Positions 12,625 through 24,607 of a DNA stretch of 42,185 nucleotides are shown piece after piece; position 1 is the first letter of the stretch, and each line of letters opens with the position of its first letter. The DNA is from Methanobacteriota archaeon. Its GTDB lineage: Archaea > JAADCQ01 > Methanopyri > Methanopyrales > Methanopyraceae. The stretch spans positions 1 to 42,185 of the forward strand of contig JAMOPO010000029.1 in the NCBI GenBank assembly GCA_027064425.1. The letters are read 5' to 3'. Below the pieces are notes generated by a model that saw only the letters and a list, made by a program, of their open reading frames with translations, did no database searches and was not told the origin of the DNA. Made by a program: the position numbers and the translations under genes.

Positions 12625-13200
12625 GTGAGGCCTCGGTGTCACGAGTGTCCGGAACCCGGGGAGCGGTGCTCGGAGTGTGGGCTGGGTCGGGAGGAGGTGA
12701 GAGAGGCGCTGGAAGAGTACGAGCGGAGTGAGCTCTTCCGGCGCTCCTCGGAGATCGAGGCGGACGGGTACATGGAGTGGACCCGGGTGGAGGAGATCGC
12801 CGAGCTGTGCGAGCGGATGGGCTGGGAGCGGGTGGGCGTGGCGTTCTGCGTGGGGCTGTGGGAGGAGGCGAGGGCGCTTTGCAAGTTTCTTGAGAATAAG
12901 GGGCTAGAGGTCTACTCGGTCTGCTGCAAGGTAGGGGGTGTGCCGAAGGAGGAGTTTGACCTGCCCGAGCTGGAGCCCGGGGACGTGATCTGCAACCCGG
13001 TCGCTCAGGCGAGGATCCTCAACCGGGTGGGCACGGACCTGAACGTGCTGGTGGGGCTGTGCGTGGGACACGACGCGCTGTTCATCCGTGAGTCGGAGGC
13101 GCCGGTGACGGTGGCGGTGGTGAAGGACCGGAGGCTGGGGCACTGCCCGGCGCTGGCGCTGACCAACCGGTACTATCGGCGTCGGTTGGGGCTGGATTAG
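12625..13200 (+). CDS. DUF1847 cysteine-rich metal-binding protein
   Basis: A 191-residue protein of the DUF1847 family, annotated in databases as metal-binding. The N-terminus carries [15 protein letters not shown], a probable zinc or Fe-S site. Further cysteines occur in [43 protein letters not shown] and [10 protein letters not shown]. The last motifs are strongly conserved in the family and may form a second metal or substrate site. The GTG at 12625 is chosen because GGGGGAG lies just upstream. The gene converges with hdrB, their stops overlapping by four bases. Function unknown. Confidence 0.82.
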
Positions 13201-14117
13201 GCGAGCCCGAGCTTCTCCAGGACCGGCGTGCAGTCGATCTGGTGCGTGTGCAGGGCGAGCTCGTCGGGGTCCATGCCGAAGGCTAGACCGGCCAGCTGGC
13301 AGTAGTGGAACACCGGCAGCTCCTTCGGCGGTAGCTTCTCGAAGTGCTCCTTCATCTCCACCTGACCTCGGTCGAACTGCAGGTGGCAGAACGGGCACAC
13401 GTTGGTCGTGCACTCGGCCCCCGCCTCGAGCATGTTCATGATCTTCTCCCGGGTGAAGTGCAGCGAGACCTTGAGCTCCCTGGACCGCACACCGCCTCCC
13501 GCGCCGCAGCACATGATCTTGTCCTTGTAATCCACGGACTCGGCGCCCAGCGCCTCCACCAGCTCGTCCAGGGTGTGCGGGTCCTCGGGGGAGTCGGGCG
13601 TGTCCGTGACCTCCGAGGGCTTGAGCAGGTGGCAGCCGTAGTGGACCGCGACCTTCAGCGGCTCCCCATCCTCCTTCTCCAGCGGCCGCTCGACCTGCTT
13701 TTCGATCTTCTTCACGCCGACCTCCTCGTACAGGAACGTGTCCACGTGGTGCACCTCGACCGTGCCCTTGTACTCCCGGTCAATCTCGGCGAGCTTCTCG
13801 TTCACGAAGTCGCGGAGCTCGTCGTTCTCCTTGAGCAGGTGGTTAGCCTCGTTGAGGGAGCCGTAGCAGCCGTTGCAGACGGTGAGGATGTCGTAGCCCT
13901 TCTCCTCCGCGATGGAGAGGTTCCGGGCGGCGATGGTCACCCAGGTCTTGAGGTCGAAGGAGCCGAAGACTCCCGGCGCCGGGCAGCAGGAGGCGCCGTC
14001 CATGTCCACCAGCTCGTAGCCCAGCTTCTCGAAGACCAGCCGCGTCGCCTTCTCAACGCCCGGGTACCGGTTCGGCATGATGCAGCCGAGGAAGAAGCAG
14101 AGCTTCTTCTTCGCCAA
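13197..14117 (-). CDS. hdrB: CoB-CoM heterodisulfide reductase subunit B
   Basis: Catalytic subunit of cytoplasmic heterodisulfide reductase, reducing CoM-S-S-CoB, the last step of methanogenesis and the electron-bifurcating partner of HdrA and hydrogenase. Two cysteine-rich CCG domains bind non-cubane [4Fe-4S] clusters. The first has [13 protein letters not shown] and CNGCYGS; the second has [14 protein letters not shown] and CPFCHLQ. Length (306) is normal. The TTG start at 14117 follows GGGGGAGTCCCCC. It lies 15 bases downstream of hdrC in one transcription unit; hdrA is not in the window, as is usual in hydrogenotrophs. Confidence 0.97.
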
Positions 14118-14132
14118 GGGGGACTCCCCCGG

Positions 14133-14711
14133 CTAGTCCTTCAGCTCACCCTTCTCCCAGTCGTACCCGATCAGCTCGTCGAAGCCGGTGAGCTTGACCA
14201 GCTTCTGCACCTCCTCCAGCGCCTCCTCGTAGCGGTGCGTGGTGGGTGGGACCTCGTCCAGCCCGATCTCCTTCCGGGTCTCCCGGATCTCATCGTTGAT
14301 GGGAACCGCGTGCCCCGTCTTGATCACGAACATCGCGACCATCCGGTGCGCCTTGGCCATGTGCCCCTCGCTGGCGGCGTAGTTCCGCGTCGCCTTGATC
14401 GCGTCCACGATCTTGACGCCGCGCGGACAGCGCTCGTAGCAGGTGTAGCACGTGGTGCACATCCACAGCTCGTCGCTCTTGATGACCTCATCCACCAGAC
14501 CCATCTGGAGCTTCCGCATGAGCACGCGCGTGCGGTACGCCGTCCTCCGACCGCTCGGGCACGAGCCCGTGCACGTTCCGCACTGGTAGCAGGCCTGGAC
14601 CGAGAGCACCTCCTCTTCCTCGAACACCGGTTCCACCTTCTCCGCCAGCTTCTCCAGGAACTCGGTATCCAGCTCCTCGTACCGGATCACGCGGTCCCGA
14701 GGCTCGACCAA
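14133..14711 (-). CDS. hdrC: CoB-CoM heterodisulfide reductase subunit C
   Basis: Ferredoxin-like subunit with two [4Fe-4S] clusters passing electrons from HdrA to HdrB. Ligands are in CYQCGTCTGSCPSG and CTTCYTCYERCPRG. TTG at 14711 gives 192 residues, close to the family norm, with GGGG about eight bases upstream. An ATG at 14759 would add 16 residues, but it lies in promoter-like AT-rich sequence, so the shorter form is preferred. Upstream is the divergent HTH regulator, whose product might control hdrCB. Confidence 0.95.
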   Translation of the reverse strand: MVEPRDRVIRYEELDTEFLEKLAEKVEPVFEEEEVLSVQACYQCGTCTGSCPSGRRTAYRTRVLMRKLQMGLVDEVIKSDELWMCTTCYTCYERCPRGVKIVDAIKATRNYAASEGHMAKAHRMVAMFVIKTGHAVPINDEIRETRKEIGLDEVPPTTHRYEEALEEVQKLVKLTGFDELIGYDWEKGELKD

Positions 14712-14740
14712 CGCCGAGCCCCGCCTCGTCGTCCGGCCAG

Positions 14741-14760
14741 GAACATTTTTACGATACACT
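14741..14760. promoter_or_regulatory. AT-rich promoter region between hdrCB and the HTH regulator
   Basis: This is the only AT-rich stretch in the divergent interval. On the minus strand it reads TATCGTAAAAATG, placing a box A about 35 bases before the preferred hdrC start. On the plus strand it reads GGAACATTTTTACG, almost the same as GGAACATTTTTATC before the gene at 39022. It may serve one or both directions. Confidence 0.4.
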
Positions 14761-17814: not shown

Positions 17815-17852
17815 CGTTCATCCCCCTAAACCGGGCCGCCGGGGTGTCCACG

Positions 17853-18296
17853 TTGGCTAAGGTGTTCATCCACCCGCCGAACAGCCTGATCCTCCACGAC
17901 CTGGTGGAGCGCTTCGGGCACGAGCCGCTCTCCCTGCCGAAGGAGGTGGGTAAGAGGGTTCGGGACCCCGAGATCGACTCGCCGCCGATGAACGTGACCC
18001 CCCGCGACCCCAAGAGGGGGCTCAAGTACGCGGCGGTGGAGGTGCCCTCCGGCGTCCGCGGGCGGCTCGCCATCATCGGCCCGCTCATCGAGAAGGCGGA
18101 CGCGGCCATCCTGGTCCGCAACGTCGAGGACCTCTCCTTCGGCTGCGTCGGTTGCGACCGGACGAACGAGTTCATCGTGCACCTCGTCCGGCGCCGCGGG
18201 ATCCCCACCCTGGAGCTGGAGTACCCCGAGGACGAGGAGGAGGCCCGCGCCTTCGTCCGGGAGGTGAAGGAGTTCCTCGAGTCGCTGGAGGGGTGA
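17853..18296 (+). CDS. methanogenesis marker protein 5
   Basis: A 147-residue protein of the methanogenesis marker 5 family, found essentially only in organisms with methyl-coenzyme M reductase. Typical segments are [41 protein letters not shown] and [12 protein letters not shown], with a C-x2-C pair. Its role is unknown, but it is encoded with MCR-related markers. TTG at 17853 is preferred over GTG at 17844 because GGGG then sits eight bases upstream and the protein starts MAKVFIH. It is first in a five-gene same-strand unit. Confidence 0.85.
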
Positions 18297-18300
18297 GCCG

Positions 18301-19524
18301 ATGGCCGTTCAGATCGCCCAGCTCTCCTGCGGTACCGAGTACAGCGGGGTCCAGCCCGAGATCGAGCGCGCCGCCGAGCGCGTGGGCGCCGAGATCGTCT
18401 TCCCCGAGGTGGACCTGGACCTGATCGAGGAGGCGTGCGAGGAGATCGGGTACCGACCCAAGAGCGCGAACCTCCGCGTGCTCCTGGCCCGGGCGTACGC
18501 GCTCGCGGAGGGCTACGCCGAGGCGGACGCGGTGCTCATCCTCACCTGCTTCCGGTGCGCCGAGGGCGCGCTGGTTCGCAGCGAGGCCCGGCGCTACCTC
18601 CAGGAGCGGACCGACCTGCCCGTGGTCACGTACTCCTTCACCGAGGACCTCGACGCGGGCGAGCTGCTCACCCGGCTCGAGGCGCTGGTCACCATCGTGG
18701 AGCGGAAGGGCCTCCTCGCCCGGAAGCGCCAGGAGGGGCTCACGCTCGGGATCGACTCCGGCTCGACCACGACCAAGGCGGTGGTGATGGAGGACGACGA
18801 GGTCATCGGGACCGGCTGGGTTCGCACGACCAAGGTCGTCGAGTCCGCCGAGAAGGCCGTCGAGCGGGCCCTCGAGGAGGCCGGTTACGAGCTGGACGAC
18901 ATCGAGGCGATCGGCGTGACCGGGTACGGCCGCTTCACCCTCGGCAAGCACTTCGACGCCGACCTCGTACAGGAGGAGCTCACGGTCAACTCCAAGGGTA
19001 CCGTGTACCTGGGCGGCAAGCAGGAGGGCGGGGCCACGGTCATCGACGTGGGCGGGATGGACAACAAGGCGATCACCGTCTGGGACGGCATCCCGGACAA
19101 CTTCACCATGGGCGGCGTGTGCGCGGGAGCCTCCGGCCGCTTCCTCGAGGTGGCCGCCGACCGGATCGGGGTCGACCTCGAGGAGTTCGGAGAGCTCGCC
19201 GTGAAGGGTGACCCCGAGAACGTCCGCCTCGACAGCTACTGCATCGTGTTCGGGATCCAGGACCTCGTGACGGCGCTCGCCGAGGGCGCCGACCCGGAGG
19301 ACGCCGCGGCCGCCGCCTGCTACAGCGTCGCCGAGCAGCTCTACGAGCAGCAGCTTCAAGAGATCGACATCCGAGAGCCCGTGTTCTTCGTCGGAGGCGC
19401 CTCCCTGATCAAGGGCATGGTGAGGGCGCTGGAGGACGTGATCGGCGTCGAGGTGCGCGTACCGCCCCACTCCCAGTACATCGGCGCCGTCGGCGCCGCC
19501 CTCCTGGCCTCCAACTACGTGTAA
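18301..19524 (+). CDS. methanogenesis marker protein 15, activase-type Fe-S ATPase
   Basis: Joins an N-terminal domain (about 1-145, with [13 protein letters not shown]) to a BadF/HgdC-type ATPase. The ATPase shows phosphate-1 [12 protein letters not shown] (149-160), the [13 protein letters not shown] region, phosphate-2 [11 protein letters not shown] (247-257), and [13 protein letters not shown] near the end. Cys274 ([12 protein letters not shown]) and Cys314 (SYCIVFG) are 40 residues apart, matching the two cysteines that bridge a dimer-interface [4Fe-4S] cluster in 2-hydroxyacyl-CoA dehydratase activases. An ATP-driven low-potential electron donor is therefore likely, probably for MCR maturation. 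The ATG start follows GGGGTGAGCCG. Confidence 0.9.
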
Positions 19525-19527
19525 GGG

Positions 19528-20151
19528 GTGCCGCGCGTGTACGAGCACCGCGGCAGGCGCATCCTCGTCGCCGCCAGCGAGCCCGAGGCCGCCGAGCTCT
19601 ACTACGACATAGCCCGTCACGCCATGACCGACCTCGGCCTCGCCCGCACCGTCACCGCCGCCGTCTTCCACATCGACATCCAGGCCCCCATCTTCGCCGC
19701 CGCCGTCCGCACCCGACCCACCGTCAAGCCAATCACCCTCGGCCAGGTCGCCACCCTCGAGCACGACGAGGAGGAGAACACCCTGCGCGTCACCATCCGC
19801 GTCGAGCGGCACGCCCCCCGGACCCTCACCGCCCTCCAACGCGTCTTCGGCGAGGAGCGCGTGCACCAGGAGGAGCGCTTCGAGATCGAGGTCGACCTCC
19901 CCGAGGACTTCACCGAGGAGCACCTCGAACGCCTCCAGAGCCTCGTCGTCCACGACCCGCGGGAGCGCCTCACCCAGCGCGTGCACGACCTGATCGAGCG
20001 CGTCCGACCCGAGGGGTTCCGCGTCGCCCGCTACGCCCGCGTCGCCAACGATTACCTCTACGCCGCCACCGAGGGCCGGTTCCGAGAGGAGTGGTCGGAG
20101 CTGCTCATGGAGCTCCCGGGCGAGCTCGACCGCGTCGAAGGGGGCGAGTGA
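19528..20151 (+). CDS. methanogenesis marker protein 17
   Basis: A 207-residue protein recognised as methanogenesis marker 17, a component reported with McrC, marker 3 and marker 7 in the ATP-dependent MCR activation complex (from memory of the literature). No catalytic motif is visible; it is an alpha/beta protein with charged C-terminal helices. The start is GTG at 19528, or GTG at 19537 with AAGGGGTG at better spacing. From here the coding strand is extremely C-rich at third positions. Its stop abuts the radical SAM gene. Confidence 0.85.
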   Translation: MPRVYEHRGRRILVAASEPEAAELYYDIARHAMTDLGLARTVTAAVFHIDIQAPIFAAAVRTRPTVKPITLGQVATLEHDEEENTLRVTIRVERHAPRTLTALQRVFGEERVHQEERFEIEVDLPEDFTEEHLERLQSLVVHDPRERLTQRVHDLIERVRPEGFRVARYARVANDYLYAATEGRFREEWSELLMELPGELDRVEGGE

Positions 20152-21000
20152 GTGAAAGTTGACCACCCGTGCTACACCGGCGAGCACGCCAAGTTCGTGA
20201 AACTCCACCTGCCGATCGGCGGGCGCTGCAACATCCACTGCCGGTTCTGCGAGTCCGGGCTCGAGCACGAGGGACAGACCGCCGACTACCCCGGCCGCAC
20301 GGTACGGACCCTATCCCCCGAGGAGGTCGAGCGCCTCCTCCGCAACGCGCGCCGAGAGTGCGGCCGGATCGACGTGGTCGGCATCGCCGGGCCCGGCGAC
20401 CCCCTCGCCAACTGGGACGAGACGCGCACCGCCCTCGAGATCGCCGCCGAGACCGCCCCCGAGGCGAAGCGGTGCCTCTCCACCAACGGCGTCTGGCTCG
20501 AGCAGTACCTGCCCGAACTGCGCCGCCTCGTCCACGCCATCACGATCACCGTGAACACCCTCGACCCCGAGACCGCCGAGCGGATCTACGACCGGGCCGT
20601 CAACGAGGACGGCGAGACCCTCACCGGCCCCGAGGCCGCACGCTGGATCGTCGAGCGCCAGGAGCGAGCCCTCGACCTCCTCTCCGAGGAGCGCTACCTC
20701 CTCAAGAAGGTCAACTTCGTCCTCATCCCGGAGGTGAACGAGGACGACGTCGAGGAGGTCGCGAAGCGCGCCGCCGACGCCGGCTTCCACGCCATGAACG
20801 TCATCCCACTCCTCCCCGGCGGAGACCTCCGAGACCACCGACCACCCACCTGCCGAGAGCTCTCCCGCGCCCGCGACCGGGCCGAGCGCTACCTCCCCGT
20901 CATGCGCCGCTGCCGACAGTGCCGGGCCGACGTGCTGCACTGCCACGGCCGACCCCGGCTCATCTGGGAGCTGCTTGAGAAGGACGAGGGGGACGACTAG
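20152..21000 (+). CDS. NifB-like radical SAM protein of the MCR-activation cluster
   Basis: A 282-residue radical SAM enzyme closely resembling NifB. The radical SAM motif is C-x3-C-x2-C, Cys26/Cys30/Cys33. Just before it is HPCYTGEHAKF (His5, Cys7), matching the NifB HPC segment that holds the K1 cluster. CLSTNG places Cys108 where NifB has a K2 ligand. The C-terminal MRRCRQCRADV (Cys254, Cys257) matches the NifB CRQCRADA motif. The NifB cysteine that follows the radical SAM motif is missing, so one K2 ligand may differ. NifB builds the carbide-containing 8Fe cluster of nitrogenase. Here, between markers 17 and 7, a parallel cluster-building role for MCR activation is inferred. GTG start directly after the upstream stop. 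Confidence 0.92.
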   Translation: MKVDHPCYTGEHAKFVKLHLPIGGRCNIHCRFCESGLEHEGQTADYPGRTVRTLSPEEVERLLRNARRECGRIDVVGIAGPGDPLANWDETRTALEIAAETAPEAKRCLSTNGVWLEQYLPELRRLVHAITITVNTLDPETAERIYDRAVNEDGETLTGPEAARWIVERQERALDLLSEERYLLKKVNFVLIPEVNEDDVEEVAKRAADAGFHAMNVIPLLPGGDLRDHRPPTCRELSRARDRAERYLPVMRRCRQCRADVLHCHGRPRLIWELLEKDEGDD

Positions 21001-21896
21001 TGTACGAGACCGTGATCTACGAGGGCGGCGTGTACAAGGCCGACGAGATGCGCGAGCTGGTCGAGGACCTCGGCGGCTTCATCCTCCAGGAGCACAAGAT
21101 GCAGCTCGAGATCCACATGATCATGGCCGTCCCGATCGAGGACCTCGACGTCGTCGAGGAGAAGGCCGAGGAGCTCCTCGGCGAGATCAAGCGCGTCCCC
21201 CTCGCCGGCACCGAGATCGCCGTCGTCGGCATGAGCCTCGCCCGGCACCACATGCCCCACCCCGTCTGCGACATCGCCGAGTACCTCCGCCGCCACGGCG
21301 CCCGCACCAACGTCATCGGCCTCGCCCGCGGCTACGGGAGAGAGCTCGCCCAGCTGAGACCCCGAGAGAAGCGCCTGCTCGAGGAGCACGACCTCGTCGT
21401 CTTCGTCGTCGGCAACTTCCGAGACTGCATCGAGAAGTACAAGCTCCCGCTCATCCGACGCATCGAGCGCGTGCCCGTGGTCGTCGTCGGCGGGCCCGAG
21501 GAGATCGACGCCGACGACGTCACCTACATCGGCGGCGTCGGCCGCAAGCCCTACCGATTCCGCAAGGGCCGCGAGATCACCAAGCTCGACGAGATCGCCG
21601 ACACCGTCTCCAGGCTCATCGAGGAGCGCCGAAAGGAGCTCGCCGAGGACCCACCCGCCGTCCCACCCATGCTCGTGAAGGACCGCCTCACCCGAGAGCT
21701 GCCCCTCCGAGACCGAGACGTCGTCCTACAGCTCGACGGCGTCCGCGTCCACCGACCCTACCGGAAGTGGAGCGACCGCCTCGCCCGCGTCGAGATCCAC
21801 GACCGAAAACTCGAAGAAGTGGCCCGAATACGGCCCTCGGAGATCCGCGGTCACACCCTGATAAAGATAAAACCGAAGAGCGAGGTCGAGGTCTAG
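21000..21896 (+). CDS. methanogenesis marker protein 7
   Basis: A 298-residue protein of the methanogenesis marker 7 family, reported as part of the MCR activation complex. Recognisable parts are IYEGGVYKADEMREL, EIAVVGMSLARHHMPHP, DLVVFVVGNFRDC and VTYIGGVGRKPYRF. Cysteines are few (VCDI, RDCIE); they or the histidines in ARHHMPHP may serve as cofactor ligands, which is inference. The GTG start overlaps the radical SAM stop by one base (TAGTG), indicating coupled translation and fitting a model in which the cluster builder and its acceptor are made together. Confidence 0.88.
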   Translation: MYETVIYEGGVYKADEMRELVEDLGGFILQEHKMQLEIHMIMAVPIEDLDVVEEKAEELLGEIKRVPLAGTEIAVVGMSLARHHMPHPVCDIAEYLRRHGARTNVIGLARGYGRELAQLRPREKRLLEEHDLVVFVVGNFRDCIEKYKLPLIRRIERVPVVVVGGPEEIDADDVTYIGGVGRKPYRFRKGREITKLDEIADTVSRLIEERRKELAEDPPAVPPMLVKDRLTRELPLRDRDVVLQLDGVRVHRPYRKWSDRLARVEIHDRKLEEVARIRPSEIRGHTLIKIKPKSEVEV

Positions 21897-21965: not shown

Positions 21966-23288
21966 GTGGCGGGGGACAACCAGGCCCGGACCCGCGCACC
22001 CAAGGCGGGCATACACGACCGCCGCGTCCTGGTTATTGAAGTTTTCCCCGGCCTCACCCCGCCCAGGAGCCTCCTAAGGGACCTCAACCGCGAGGAGCGA
22101 AAGCTCCTCCTCGCCGCCGCCGGCCACCCCGACCTCCACTTCTGGGCCCGAAACACCATCGCCTACCTCTTCGACCACCCCACCCCCCTCCTCCTCGCCG
22201 CCGAACGACACGAGCGCATCCTCCCCACCGCCGTCCGCACCGTCGTCGAGCACCTGACCAACGACCCCAAGCGAGCCGACAAGGCCGCCCGGCTGGTACG
22301 AAAGGGCCACACCCCCCGCGAGGCCACCACCCACGCCGCCGGCCCCGACACCGCCCGCACCACCGCCCGAATCCTCGGCCGCACCCTGGGCTACATCCAG
22401 TCGGACCCGCTGACCATCGCCCTCACCCTCCAGGTCCTGGGCGTGCTGCTCACAGCACCGCACCGACTGCGACCGCTGACCCACATCCTCGTCGTGATCC
22501 CCGAGCTCAAGCACCTGAACATCCACCCGGAGCGCCTCGCCCGCCGCGTCTACTCCACCCTCTACCGCGCCCTCCGCACCCTCGACATCCCCCGCCACCT
22601 GACCCTCCGCGTCTACCTGAAGCGCGAGGACGGCCGCCTCGAGGACCCGCGCGGCGAGCCCACGGAGACCTTCCTGGTCGAGGCCTACGAGGAGCTCTTC
22701 CACCACCGACCGCACGCCGGCGGCAAGCACTTCCCGCCCCACGACCGCACCGCGCACGTCACCGCCTGGGCCCACGCCCTCGCCCGCGCCCTCACCGACC
22801 GCGTCCGCCGAGACCTACACCGGCGCGGGCTACGCGCCGCCCAGCGCGCCAAGCAACGCGGAGAGGACCCCAACGACGCCTACCAGCGAGAGCGCAACAA
22901 GTGGCTCAAACGCTGGTTCCGCCGCGGCCGAGCCTGGCTCAAGCACCACCGACCCGCCCCAACCCTCTCCCGACTCTCCGCCCACTTCGTCCTCCGGGAG
23001 GCCGGCACCGAGCTCCTGCACACCCCCGGATTCCTGGCCCGCGTGACGCGCACCACCCTCCGAACCCTGCTTCGAGCGGGGAACCTGACCCGGATCGGCG
23101 TCCGGCAGACGGTCCGACGCGTCGCCCGGAAGCTGGTCGAGAGGTTCCAACCCACCCCGGATCAGGCCAAGCACATCCTGAAGCTCCTGCGCCGAGCACG
23201 CCGCCGAGTGCTCGGTGACAGGACGCTGCTGGAGGCCTTTGGGACCCCATCGCGGCTCGAGGCGCTGGCCCGCAGCCCGCCCGGCTGA
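21966..23288 (+). CDS. orphan Arg/His-rich protein of unknown function
   Basis: A 440-residue protein with no domain I recognise. The N-terminal third is Ala/Leu/His/Arg-rich helices; a mildly hydrophobic stretch (DPLTIALTLQVLGVLLTAP) lies near residue 146. The C-terminal half is very basic, with clusters such as KWLKRWFRRGRAWLKHHR and repeated R-x-x-R patterns, suggesting nucleic-acid binding. Third positions are overwhelmingly C, as in the marker genes upstream, and the opposite of the G-rich genes downstream. The GTG at 21966 is the longest start. It is separated from marker 7 by a 69-base GC-rich gap and followed by the AT-rich spacer. Possibly Methanopyrus-specific. Confidence 0.6.
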   Translation: MAGDNQARTRAPKAGIHDRRVLVIEVFPGLTPPRSLLRDLNREERKLLLAAAGHPDLHFWARNTIAYLFDHPTPLLLAAERHERILPTAVRTVVEHLTNDPKRADKAARLVRKGHTPREATTHAAGPDTARTTARILGRTLGYIQSDPLTIALTLQVLGVLLTAPHRLRPLTHILVVIPELKHLNIHPERLARRVYSTLYRALRTLDIPRHLTLRVYLKREDGRLEDPRGEPTETFLVEAYEELFHHRPHAGGKHFPPHDRTAHVTAWAHALARALTDRVRRDLHRRGLRAAQRAKQRGEDPNDAYQRERNKWLKRWFRRGRAWLKHHRPAPTLSRLSAHFVLREAGTELLHTPGFLARVTRTTLRTLLRAGNLTRIGVRQTVRRVARKLVERFQPTPDQAKHILKLLRRARRRVLGDRTLLEAFGTPSRLEALARSPPG

Positions 23289-23734
23289 GTTGAAACCACG
23301 GGCGCAAGCCGCGCGACCCGGGGTGGGACCGGGGCCGCAGATCGTTAAGAAGTTCGAAACAATGTGACACACGCTTGTCGTGCCGTTAAGAACGCACCCA
23401 GGGCGCTCAGAAAAGTGTTTTTCCTGAAGCTAACGAGACCACAAAACACAACCCTAAGCGCTGCCTTCATCGCGCTAATACCCGGCTAACCAAATAGATA
23501 ACCAAATAACCTGGTATTTGGACCAATATCTAACTTGAACCGAGCTTAAGTGATGACAGGCTGAAGCCGGTTGTCAGCCTTGATTCATGCGTTCTTTAAC
23601 CCGGGCGCGTCCCCCGGCGGGGCTGTGATCGGTTGGTTCCGGTTCGCTCGACCGTTGTTTCGGGATCGCGCGGCGGCTGGGTGAAGCTTCTTATCCCGCG
23701 GTCCGGTGGGGGAGACGGCCGGGGCGGGTTCGCC
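23289..23734. other. AT-rich intergenic region with repeats, upstream of primase
   Basis: The longest and most AT-rich gap in the window lies here, with its core around 23340-23600. It holds a 9-bp direct repeat CGTTAAGAA at 23343-23351 and 23384-23392, a near-inverted copy (GCGTTCTTTAAC at 23590-23601), CCAAATA at 23490-23496 and 23502-23508 facing TATTTGG at 23515-23521, and a 7-bp inverted repeat AGGCTGA/TCAGCCT at 23558-23564 and 23574-23580. No gene is seen. The C-rich to G-rich switch of the + strand occurs across it. It could be a promoter/operator region for the primase operon or a replication origin. Confidence 0.55.
23502..23521. repeat. CCAAATA/TATTTGG inverted repeat
   Basis: A perfect 7-bp inverted repeat with a six-base ACCTGG centre, plus an extra direct CCAAATA copy 12 bases to the left (23490-23496). 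It is the most AT-rich point of the intergenic region. A protein-binding site is more likely than an RNA hairpin, given the weak stem for a hyperthermophile. Confidence 0.5.
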
Positions 23735-24607
23735 GTGCGGGTGGCCGCGTTCGCGGCGGAGTTTTACTCGCGGCTGCCGGAGGGCGTGTTCCGTGAGTTC
23801 GTGCGGGAGCCGGAGCGGCGGGAGTGGGCGTTCACGGTGGAGCGGGGTGGCGACCTGGTCTTCGTGCGGAAGCGTCGGTGGGACGAGGTGGAGGGGTTCG
23901 TGGAGCTGTACCACTCGGTGGGTCGGTTCGAGGAGCCGACGAGGTGGGAGGGGTTGACGGGCTGGGATTTGGTGCTGGACGTGGACGCGGAGCTGCCGGA
24001 GGATGCGGAGGGGTTCTTGCGGGAGCTGGGGGAGCTGTTGAGGGGTGTGGTTCGGGTGTGTGAGGAGCTGCGTCGGGTGGTGGGTCTGCCGGCGCCGGAC
24101 GTGATCAACTTCTCGGGGTCGAAGGGGTTTCATGTGCGGTACTTCTTTGAGTCGATTAGGAACAGGTTGAGGTGGGGGGAGCACTTGGGGAGGGGGTTGG
24201 ACGTGGAGGAGCTGGTTAGGGGGTTGGGTCGTGGGTTGGTCTGGTTGGCGGAGGAGGGGTTCATTGGTGGTGGGGTGGGTGAGCTGTTGGATGAGTCGAT
24301 GTACGAGTTGAAGCGGTTGATTCGGTGTGTGGGTTCTTTGAACGCTAAGTCGTTGTTGCCGGCGGTGCCGGTGTGGTGTAAGTGGGAGGGTTCGTGGCGG
24401 GAGTTCAGGGAGAGGGTGTTGGATGGGAGTGGGTTGGAGGTGGGTTGTTGGGTGGTTCGGAGGGTGTTGACGTGGCCGGGTGGTGGGTTGGTGGAGGTGT
24501 TGGATCGGGTGCTGGGGTTGGAGGTGGATGTCGGTGTGCGGGGGTTGGAGGAGTTCGTGGGTGTGTGGGAGGAGGTTCAGGAGGCGTTGGGGGAGATGAA
24601 GGGGTGA
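23735..24607 (+). CDS. priS: DNA primase small (catalytic) subunit
   Basis: Archaeo-eukaryotic primase catalytic subunit. The catalytic acids are visible as Asp82 and Asp84 in LVLDVDAELP, with the third probably Asp186 in LLDESMYEL. FSGSKGFHVRYF is the conserved nucleotide-binding motif, and RLIRCVGSLNAKS corresponds to the family R-L-P-x-SLH-x-K region with Asn in place of His. GTG at 23735 gives MRVAAFAAEFY with GGGGCGGG upstream; GTG at 23681 would add 18 Gly-rich residues. At 290 residues it is somewhat shorter than most PriS. No large subunit gene is present. It overlaps cofC by four bases. Confidence 0.88.
   Translation: MRVAAFAAEFYSRLPEGVFREFVREPERREWAFTVERGGDLVFVRKRRWDEVEGFVELYHSVGRFEEPTRWEGLTGWDLVLDVDAELPEDAEGFLRELGELLRGVVRVCEELRRVVGLPAPDVINFSGSKGFHVRYFFESIRNRLRWGEHLGRGLDVEELVRGLGRGLVWLAEEGFIGGGVGELLDESMYELKRLIRCVGSLNAKSLLPAVPVWCKWEGSWREFRERVLDGSGLEVGCWVVRRVLTWPGGGLVEVLDRVLGLEVDVGVRGLEEFVGVWEEVQEALGEMKG

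Follow-up and report, generated by a model that had tools for sequence, protein, structure and literature searches.

The window analysed in this work, a stretch of 42,185 nt from the forward strand of contig JAMOPO010000029.1 (GCA_027064425.1; Methanobacteriota archaeon, Methanopyraceae), comes from a heat-loving methanogen. Five open reading frames of the same strand filled positions 17844-21896: mmp5 (methanogenesis marker 5, DUF2112; 17844..18296, +), encoding 150 aa (TIGR03271, E 2.9e-71; PF09885, E 1.6e-66), with an alternative TTG start at 17853; mmp15 (18301..19524, +), encoding 407 aa (TIGR03286, E 6e-230; PF01869, E 2e-73); mmp17 (DUF2113; 19528..20151, +), encoding 207 aa (TIGR03291, E 2.3e-55; PDB 8S7V chain G, E 1.3e-9); a NifB-like radical SAM gene (20152..21000, +), encoding 282 aa (PDB NifB, E 1e-52; fold TM 0.86 to 7BI7); and mmp7 (21000..21896, +), encoding 298 aa (TIGR03274, E 6.3e-128; PDB 8S7V chain H, E 4e-79). 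The NCBIfam scores of markers 5, 15, 17 and 7 were far over the curated cut-offs. The gaps mmp5/mmp15, mmp15/mmp17 and mmp17/nifB were 4, 3 and 0 nt respectively, and the nifB and mmp7 frames share 1 nt; the five tightly packed genes described in a first-pass annotation of this DNA were thus all recovered. Positions 17844-21896 are a real and coherent MCR-activation operon, of a kind described before.

Other genes were observed around the operon. The heterodisulfide reductase genes hdrB and hdrC (13197-14759, -) lie around 3 kb upstream, on the opposite strand. Two open reading frames follow the operon: one of 440 aa (21966-23288, +), with no Pfam family and a marginal NCBIfam match far under the cut-off, and one of 324 aa (23633-24607, +), with a weak PriS (primase small subunit) match (E 5e-6), also far under the cut-off.

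NifB, an enzyme mainly associated with nitrogen fixation, builds a complex iron-sulfur cluster. At E <= 0.001, the radical SAM protein had no PDB relatives other than archaeal NifB structures (E 1e-45 to 1e-52). Its match to the TIGR01290 nifB model (E 4e-61, 207 bits) was under the equivalog cut-off (343.65 bits), but this cut-off was not decisive, because a NifB identical over the compared region to the crystallised 7BI7 of M. thermautotrophicus also failed it (306.7 bits). An AlphaFold model (built with 13 related sequences, pLDDT 88) had the NifB fold when compared with NifB structures: five NifB chains ranked top in Foldseek (TM 0.72-0.86, the value of 0.86 being that for 7BI7), and other radical SAM folds dropped sharply below. 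Ligand sets were taken from PMC6053413, PMC7145814 and PMC9692996, and the extra cysteines were compared with the active site by alignment to the ligands of solved structures. This alignment recovered the radical-SAM cluster ligands C26, C30 and C33 (CxxxCxxC), the K1 ligands C7, H19 and C108 (C18, H31 and C115 in 7BI7), and the K2 ligands C254 and C257 (C260 and C263 in 7BI7), together with C234. All the motifs named in the first-pass annotation (H5-P6-C7, C26-x3-C30-x2-C33, C108-LSTNG and C254-RQ-C257-RAD) were present, and there was no NifX domain. The protein was encoded at this operon site in all four genomes of the lineage; its ligands did not vary, and sequence identity was 67-73 percent. 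Sequence and model identify it as a NifB-type enzyme with all the reported substrate-cluster ligands, and L-cluster formation is predicted.

One residue was missing. C62 of MtNifB was reported as strictly conserved, a flexible-loop residue that caps the radical-SAM cluster before loading of the K-cluster (PMC9692996), and the equivalent C63 of MaNifB was assigned to K1 (PMC6053413). The aligned loop of the window NifB (residues 34-46, ESGLEHEGQTADYPG) had no cysteine at this position, the sequence reading CRFC-ESGLEHEGQTADYPGR, and the same alignment found none in NifB from any of the four genomes of the lineage. Glutamate is the next K1 loop ligand, for which E38 and E40 are candidates; loop residues 40-46 had pLDDT below 50, the loop being the least certain inner part of the model. 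The loop cysteine was missing in 12 of the 67 Mmp7 genomes with a full-length NifB: four from the window lineage, 7/7 from family f72, and one other (G269). All 12 had fewer than four matches to the nitrogenase family (PF00148), and the 24 genomes with at least four all kept the cysteine. These were three independent events, the pair test was not significant, and the tie between cysteine loss and missing nitrogenase is a lead, not a result; in none of the three lineages was the set of nitrogenase genes complete. Some nifB genes of family f72 are linked to mmp17 in the same way and likewise encode no such cysteine, so that this residue, judged from the alignments, probably does not define NifB. 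In two genomes whose NifB is without the loop cysteine, a fused nitrogenase-like protein was observed with two PF00148 domains in one frame of around 1,025 aa (G144:C269:5848-8580 and G263:C20:96076-98814).

The genome of the organism (1.54 Mb, 99 percent complete) was searched for nifH, nifD, nifK and a second nifB, and only CfbC/CfbD, two F430 synthesis proteins, and the single NifB were found. No nifDK was found in this genome, its single PF00148 protein being CfbD (TIGR03282, 502 bits). One strong NifH-type protein scored 328 bits with nifH and 309 bits with CfbC, both under the cut-off, and is best read as CfbC. A second NifB was rejected, the other matches in the genome being weak radical SAM proteins (the best in the protein search with E 7e-5 and 31 percent identity over 113 residues). 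A nitrogenase remnant was also rejected: NifDK was absent from four genomes of the lineage, and the operon position was constant. Since the genome has no nitrogenase and its NifB is in an MCR-activation operon, the job of this enzyme appears to be independent of nitrogen fixation, as had been proposed from the sequence of the window.

The activation complex purified from M. maripaludis contained McrC, Mmp7, Mmp17, Mmp3, A2 and DUF2098 (PMC12176620). MCR activation was ATP-dependent, and a 2025 cryo-EM study located three L-like clusters in McrC/Mmp7, the third of which (FeSIII) lies closest to the surface, where Mmp7 and Mmp17 meet (PMC12176620). The authors considered NifB probably involved in forming these clusters, and cited NifB as essential in methanogens without nitrogenase; spectroscopic proof of a central carbide is still lacking (PMC12176620). 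Mmp7 from the window keeps the L-cluster ligands H84 and C143, and the possible ligand C90, with the same numbering as PDB 8S7V chain H. McrC is encoded elsewhere, with mcr on contig C26, and its C19, H56, C62 and H124 align with the ligands reported for M. maripaludis McrC (C12, H49, C55 and H118). No reported L-cluster ligand is missing from either Mmp7 or McrC, so all three cluster sites are intact. Mmp17 has no cysteines in its 207 aa. Markers 7 and 17 had both been placed in an activation complex with nitrogenase-type clusters, and the NifB-like protein had been proposed to build an 8Fe cluster for them; the clusters, however, are in McrC and Mmp7, the partner of marker 7 being McrC, and Mmp17 only borders the third cluster. 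MCR activation is the only known NifB client in the genome.

A NifX/NafY-like protein of 109 aa (L119, G000:C15:323985-324263; PF02579, E 1e-20) was observed on contig C15 and in 4 of the 5 genomes of the lineage. Its gene adjoins the frame of a MinD-type ATPase with ferredoxin motifs. It is a possible candidate for an L-cluster carrier.

Mmp15 has an N-terminal region with C83/C86 and an ATPase domain of the BcrAD/BadFG/HgdC activase type. The activase-like pair of cysteines described in the first-pass annotation corresponds to C274 and C314, exactly 40 residues apart, which align with the conserved bridging cysteines of HgdC (1HUX) and other activases (E 2e-33). No paper naming marker 15 as an electron donor was found in the open-access literature searched.

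Distribution was surveyed in 294 archaeal genomes from 194 genera. NifB was encoded in 68 of 68 genomes with Mmp7, many of them without nitrogenase, versus 12 of 226 without Mmp7. In most MCR lineages nifB was outside the mmp operon, and in many it was unlinked to mmp7 or mmp17. Of the 68 Mmp7 genomes, 23 (five families) had nifB as the next same-strand gene after mmp17, and six others had it on the opposite strand at a distance of up to 2 kb; mmp15 and mmp17 were strongly linked, lying within 150 nt of each other in 53 genomes, and mmp17 and mmp7 were this close in 26. Only in the window lineage (4/4 genomes) did nifB adjoin mmp7, the tightest nifB linkage among the genomes surveyed. The term “dedicated machine”, used in the first-pass annotation, is fair for the window genome, though less so for the many other MCR lineages with nifB unlinked to mmp7/mmp17. 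A scan of genome contigs with the window NifB gave no match, and matches of a scan with the Mmp7 alignment were limited to Methanopyri and Methanococci.

The NifB of the lineage was a long branch in the tree. When family f37 and genome G025, which have long branches, were left out, it grouped with f21/f42/f33/f3/f72/f79 (support 78/38), and its placement as sister to either half was not rejected (AU p 0.28 and 0.19). With f37 included, it fell outside all other NifB from Mmp7 genomes, in a position where the program warns of long branches meeting. The weak grouping is consistent with vertical descent. Entry of nifB into the operon by horizontal transfer was considered and is unsupported, the lineage NifB grouping, weakly, with the families listed above.

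Several NifB homologues were observed in genomes without Mmp7. Family f37 (L108-L114) comprises seven archaeal genomes of around 3 Mb (G071, G165, G150, G179, G222, G052 and G208), whose homologues keep all the radical-SAM, K1 and K2 ligands; no PF00148, Mmp7, Mmp15 or Mmp17 match was found in these genomes, making this a NifB without a known client. Its gene adjoins that of a Roadblock/LC7 protein in L111, L112 and L114, and in L112 it is near the topoisomerase VI A and B genes. L080 (G025) is a homologue with a very long branch, in a genome without Mmp7 or a PF00148 match. In L061, L062, L066 and L067 (G004, G044, G130 and G158), nifB shares a contig with one or two nitrogenase-family genes, which come immediately after it or otherwise accompany it, a compact nitrogenase-like locus.

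Taken at the level of sequence, gene identities, ligand conservation, nitrogenase absence and co-occurrence are established, and the reading we prefer, and consider highly probable, is that mmp5-mmp15-mmp17-nifB-mmp7 forms the operon for MCR activation in a Methanopyrus-type methanogen, whose NifB makes L-clusters for Mmp7/McrC. We infer the activity of NifB, the delivery route and the role of Mmp15 as follows. NifB would fuse two [4Fe-4S] clusters and insert a SAM-derived carbide, giving [8Fe-9S-C] L-clusters. These may be passed to Mmp7, made beside NifB from overlapping genes, and to McrC, perhaps through the 109-aa NifX-like carrier. The McrC-Mmp7-Mmp17 assembly would then pass low-potential electrons from FeSIII through FeSII and FeSI to the Ni(II)-F430 of MCR, the A2 ATPase opening the MCR site during electron delivery. 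Mmp15 may feed FeSIII as an ATP-driven [4Fe-4S] reductase, a plausible step that we rate at somewhat less than even odds.

Two other readings concern NifB itself. The homologue might run another radical SAM reaction, such as modifying MCR or one of the Mmp proteins, in place of L-cluster synthesis; Mmp10, a radical SAM enzyme, modifies McrA, and the long branch and the missing loop cysteine of the window NifB would suit such a role. Against this, the four genomes of the lineage keep all K1 and K2 ligands, which a radical SAM enzyme of another kind would have no cause to retain; the fold match falls sharply beyond NifB chains; and the genome has no other NifB to supply the Mmp7/McrC clusters. 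We consider this reading very unlikely. NifB being so well known from nitrogen fixation, the gene might also be what remains of a nitrogenase system since lost, and now be without function; this is scarcely credible for a gene that keeps its operon site in 4/4 genomes, at 67-73 percent identity and with all ligands unchanged, and whose family is encoded in every Mmp7 genome, nitrogenase or not.

The part played by Mmp15 is much more evenly balanced. With the operon and the role of NifB unchanged, Mmp15 could be an ATP-dependent loading or remodelling factor, FeSIII receiving its electrons from ferredoxin or Hdr-Mvh-Fwd, and we put the chances of this at about even. Mmp15 was missing from the purified M. 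maripaludis complex, while the older A3a fraction contained Hdr-Mvh-Fwd (PMC12176620); its extra N-terminal region is absent from activases, and hdrB and hdrC are 3 kb from the operon. On the other side, both activase bridging cysteines are kept, suggesting [4Fe-4S] electron transfer, and an ATP-driven conformational role is already filled by A2. Within the preferred reading of the operon, a fuller proposal would combine loss of the loop cysteine in MCR-only NifB lineages (with different SAM gating), direct L-cluster handover to co-translated Mmp7, and charging of FeSIII by Mmp15; as a whole we regard it as rather unlikely.

The operon bears on how methanogens reach the very low potential for Ni-F430 activation, and on which enzyme makes the clusters used there. 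With its sole NifB encoded between mmp17 and mmp7 and no confounding nitrogenase, this non-diazotroph offers a clean setting in which to co-express NifB and its client. The missing loop cysteine casts doubt on this residue as general to NifB, and makes the window NifB a natural variant for probing how NifB controls SAM binding.

NifB as maker of an 8Fe cluster for MCR activation has already been proposed in print (PMC12176620); new here are the location of nifB between mmp17 and mmp7, found in this lineage only (4/4 genomes), and a NifB without the “strictly conserved” loop cysteine. Compared with the M. maripaludis activation complex (PMC12176620), Mmp7, Mmp17 and McrC are orthologous and all the reported L-cluster ligands are kept, but the activation genes are dispersed in M. 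maripaludis, whereas here mmp5, 15, 17, nifB and 7 form one operon. In Methanothermobacter marburgensis nifB also follows the mmp cluster (MTBMA_c04360-c04410; PMC12176620), the order mmp15-mmp17-nifB being shared with the window and seen in 23 of the 68 Mmp7 genomes; mmp7 is elsewhere in that organism, but directly after nifB, with a 1-nt overlap, in the window. The archaeal NifB of Methanothermobacter and Methanothrix (7BI7, 7JMB and 6Y1X) have the same fold, radical-SAM motif and K1/K2 ligands, and likewise no NifX domain; the window NifB differs from them in being only around 38 percent identical, in a loop at least 2 residues longer, and in the absence of the loop cysteine. The activases of 2-hydroxyacyl-CoA dehydratases and benzoyl-CoA reductases (HgdC 1HUX; BcrAD family) match the C-terminal 255 aa of Mmp15, including the bridging cysteines, but Mmp15 has in addition an N-terminal region carrying a further pair of cysteines, and is encoded in an operon without a dehydratase or reductase partner gene.
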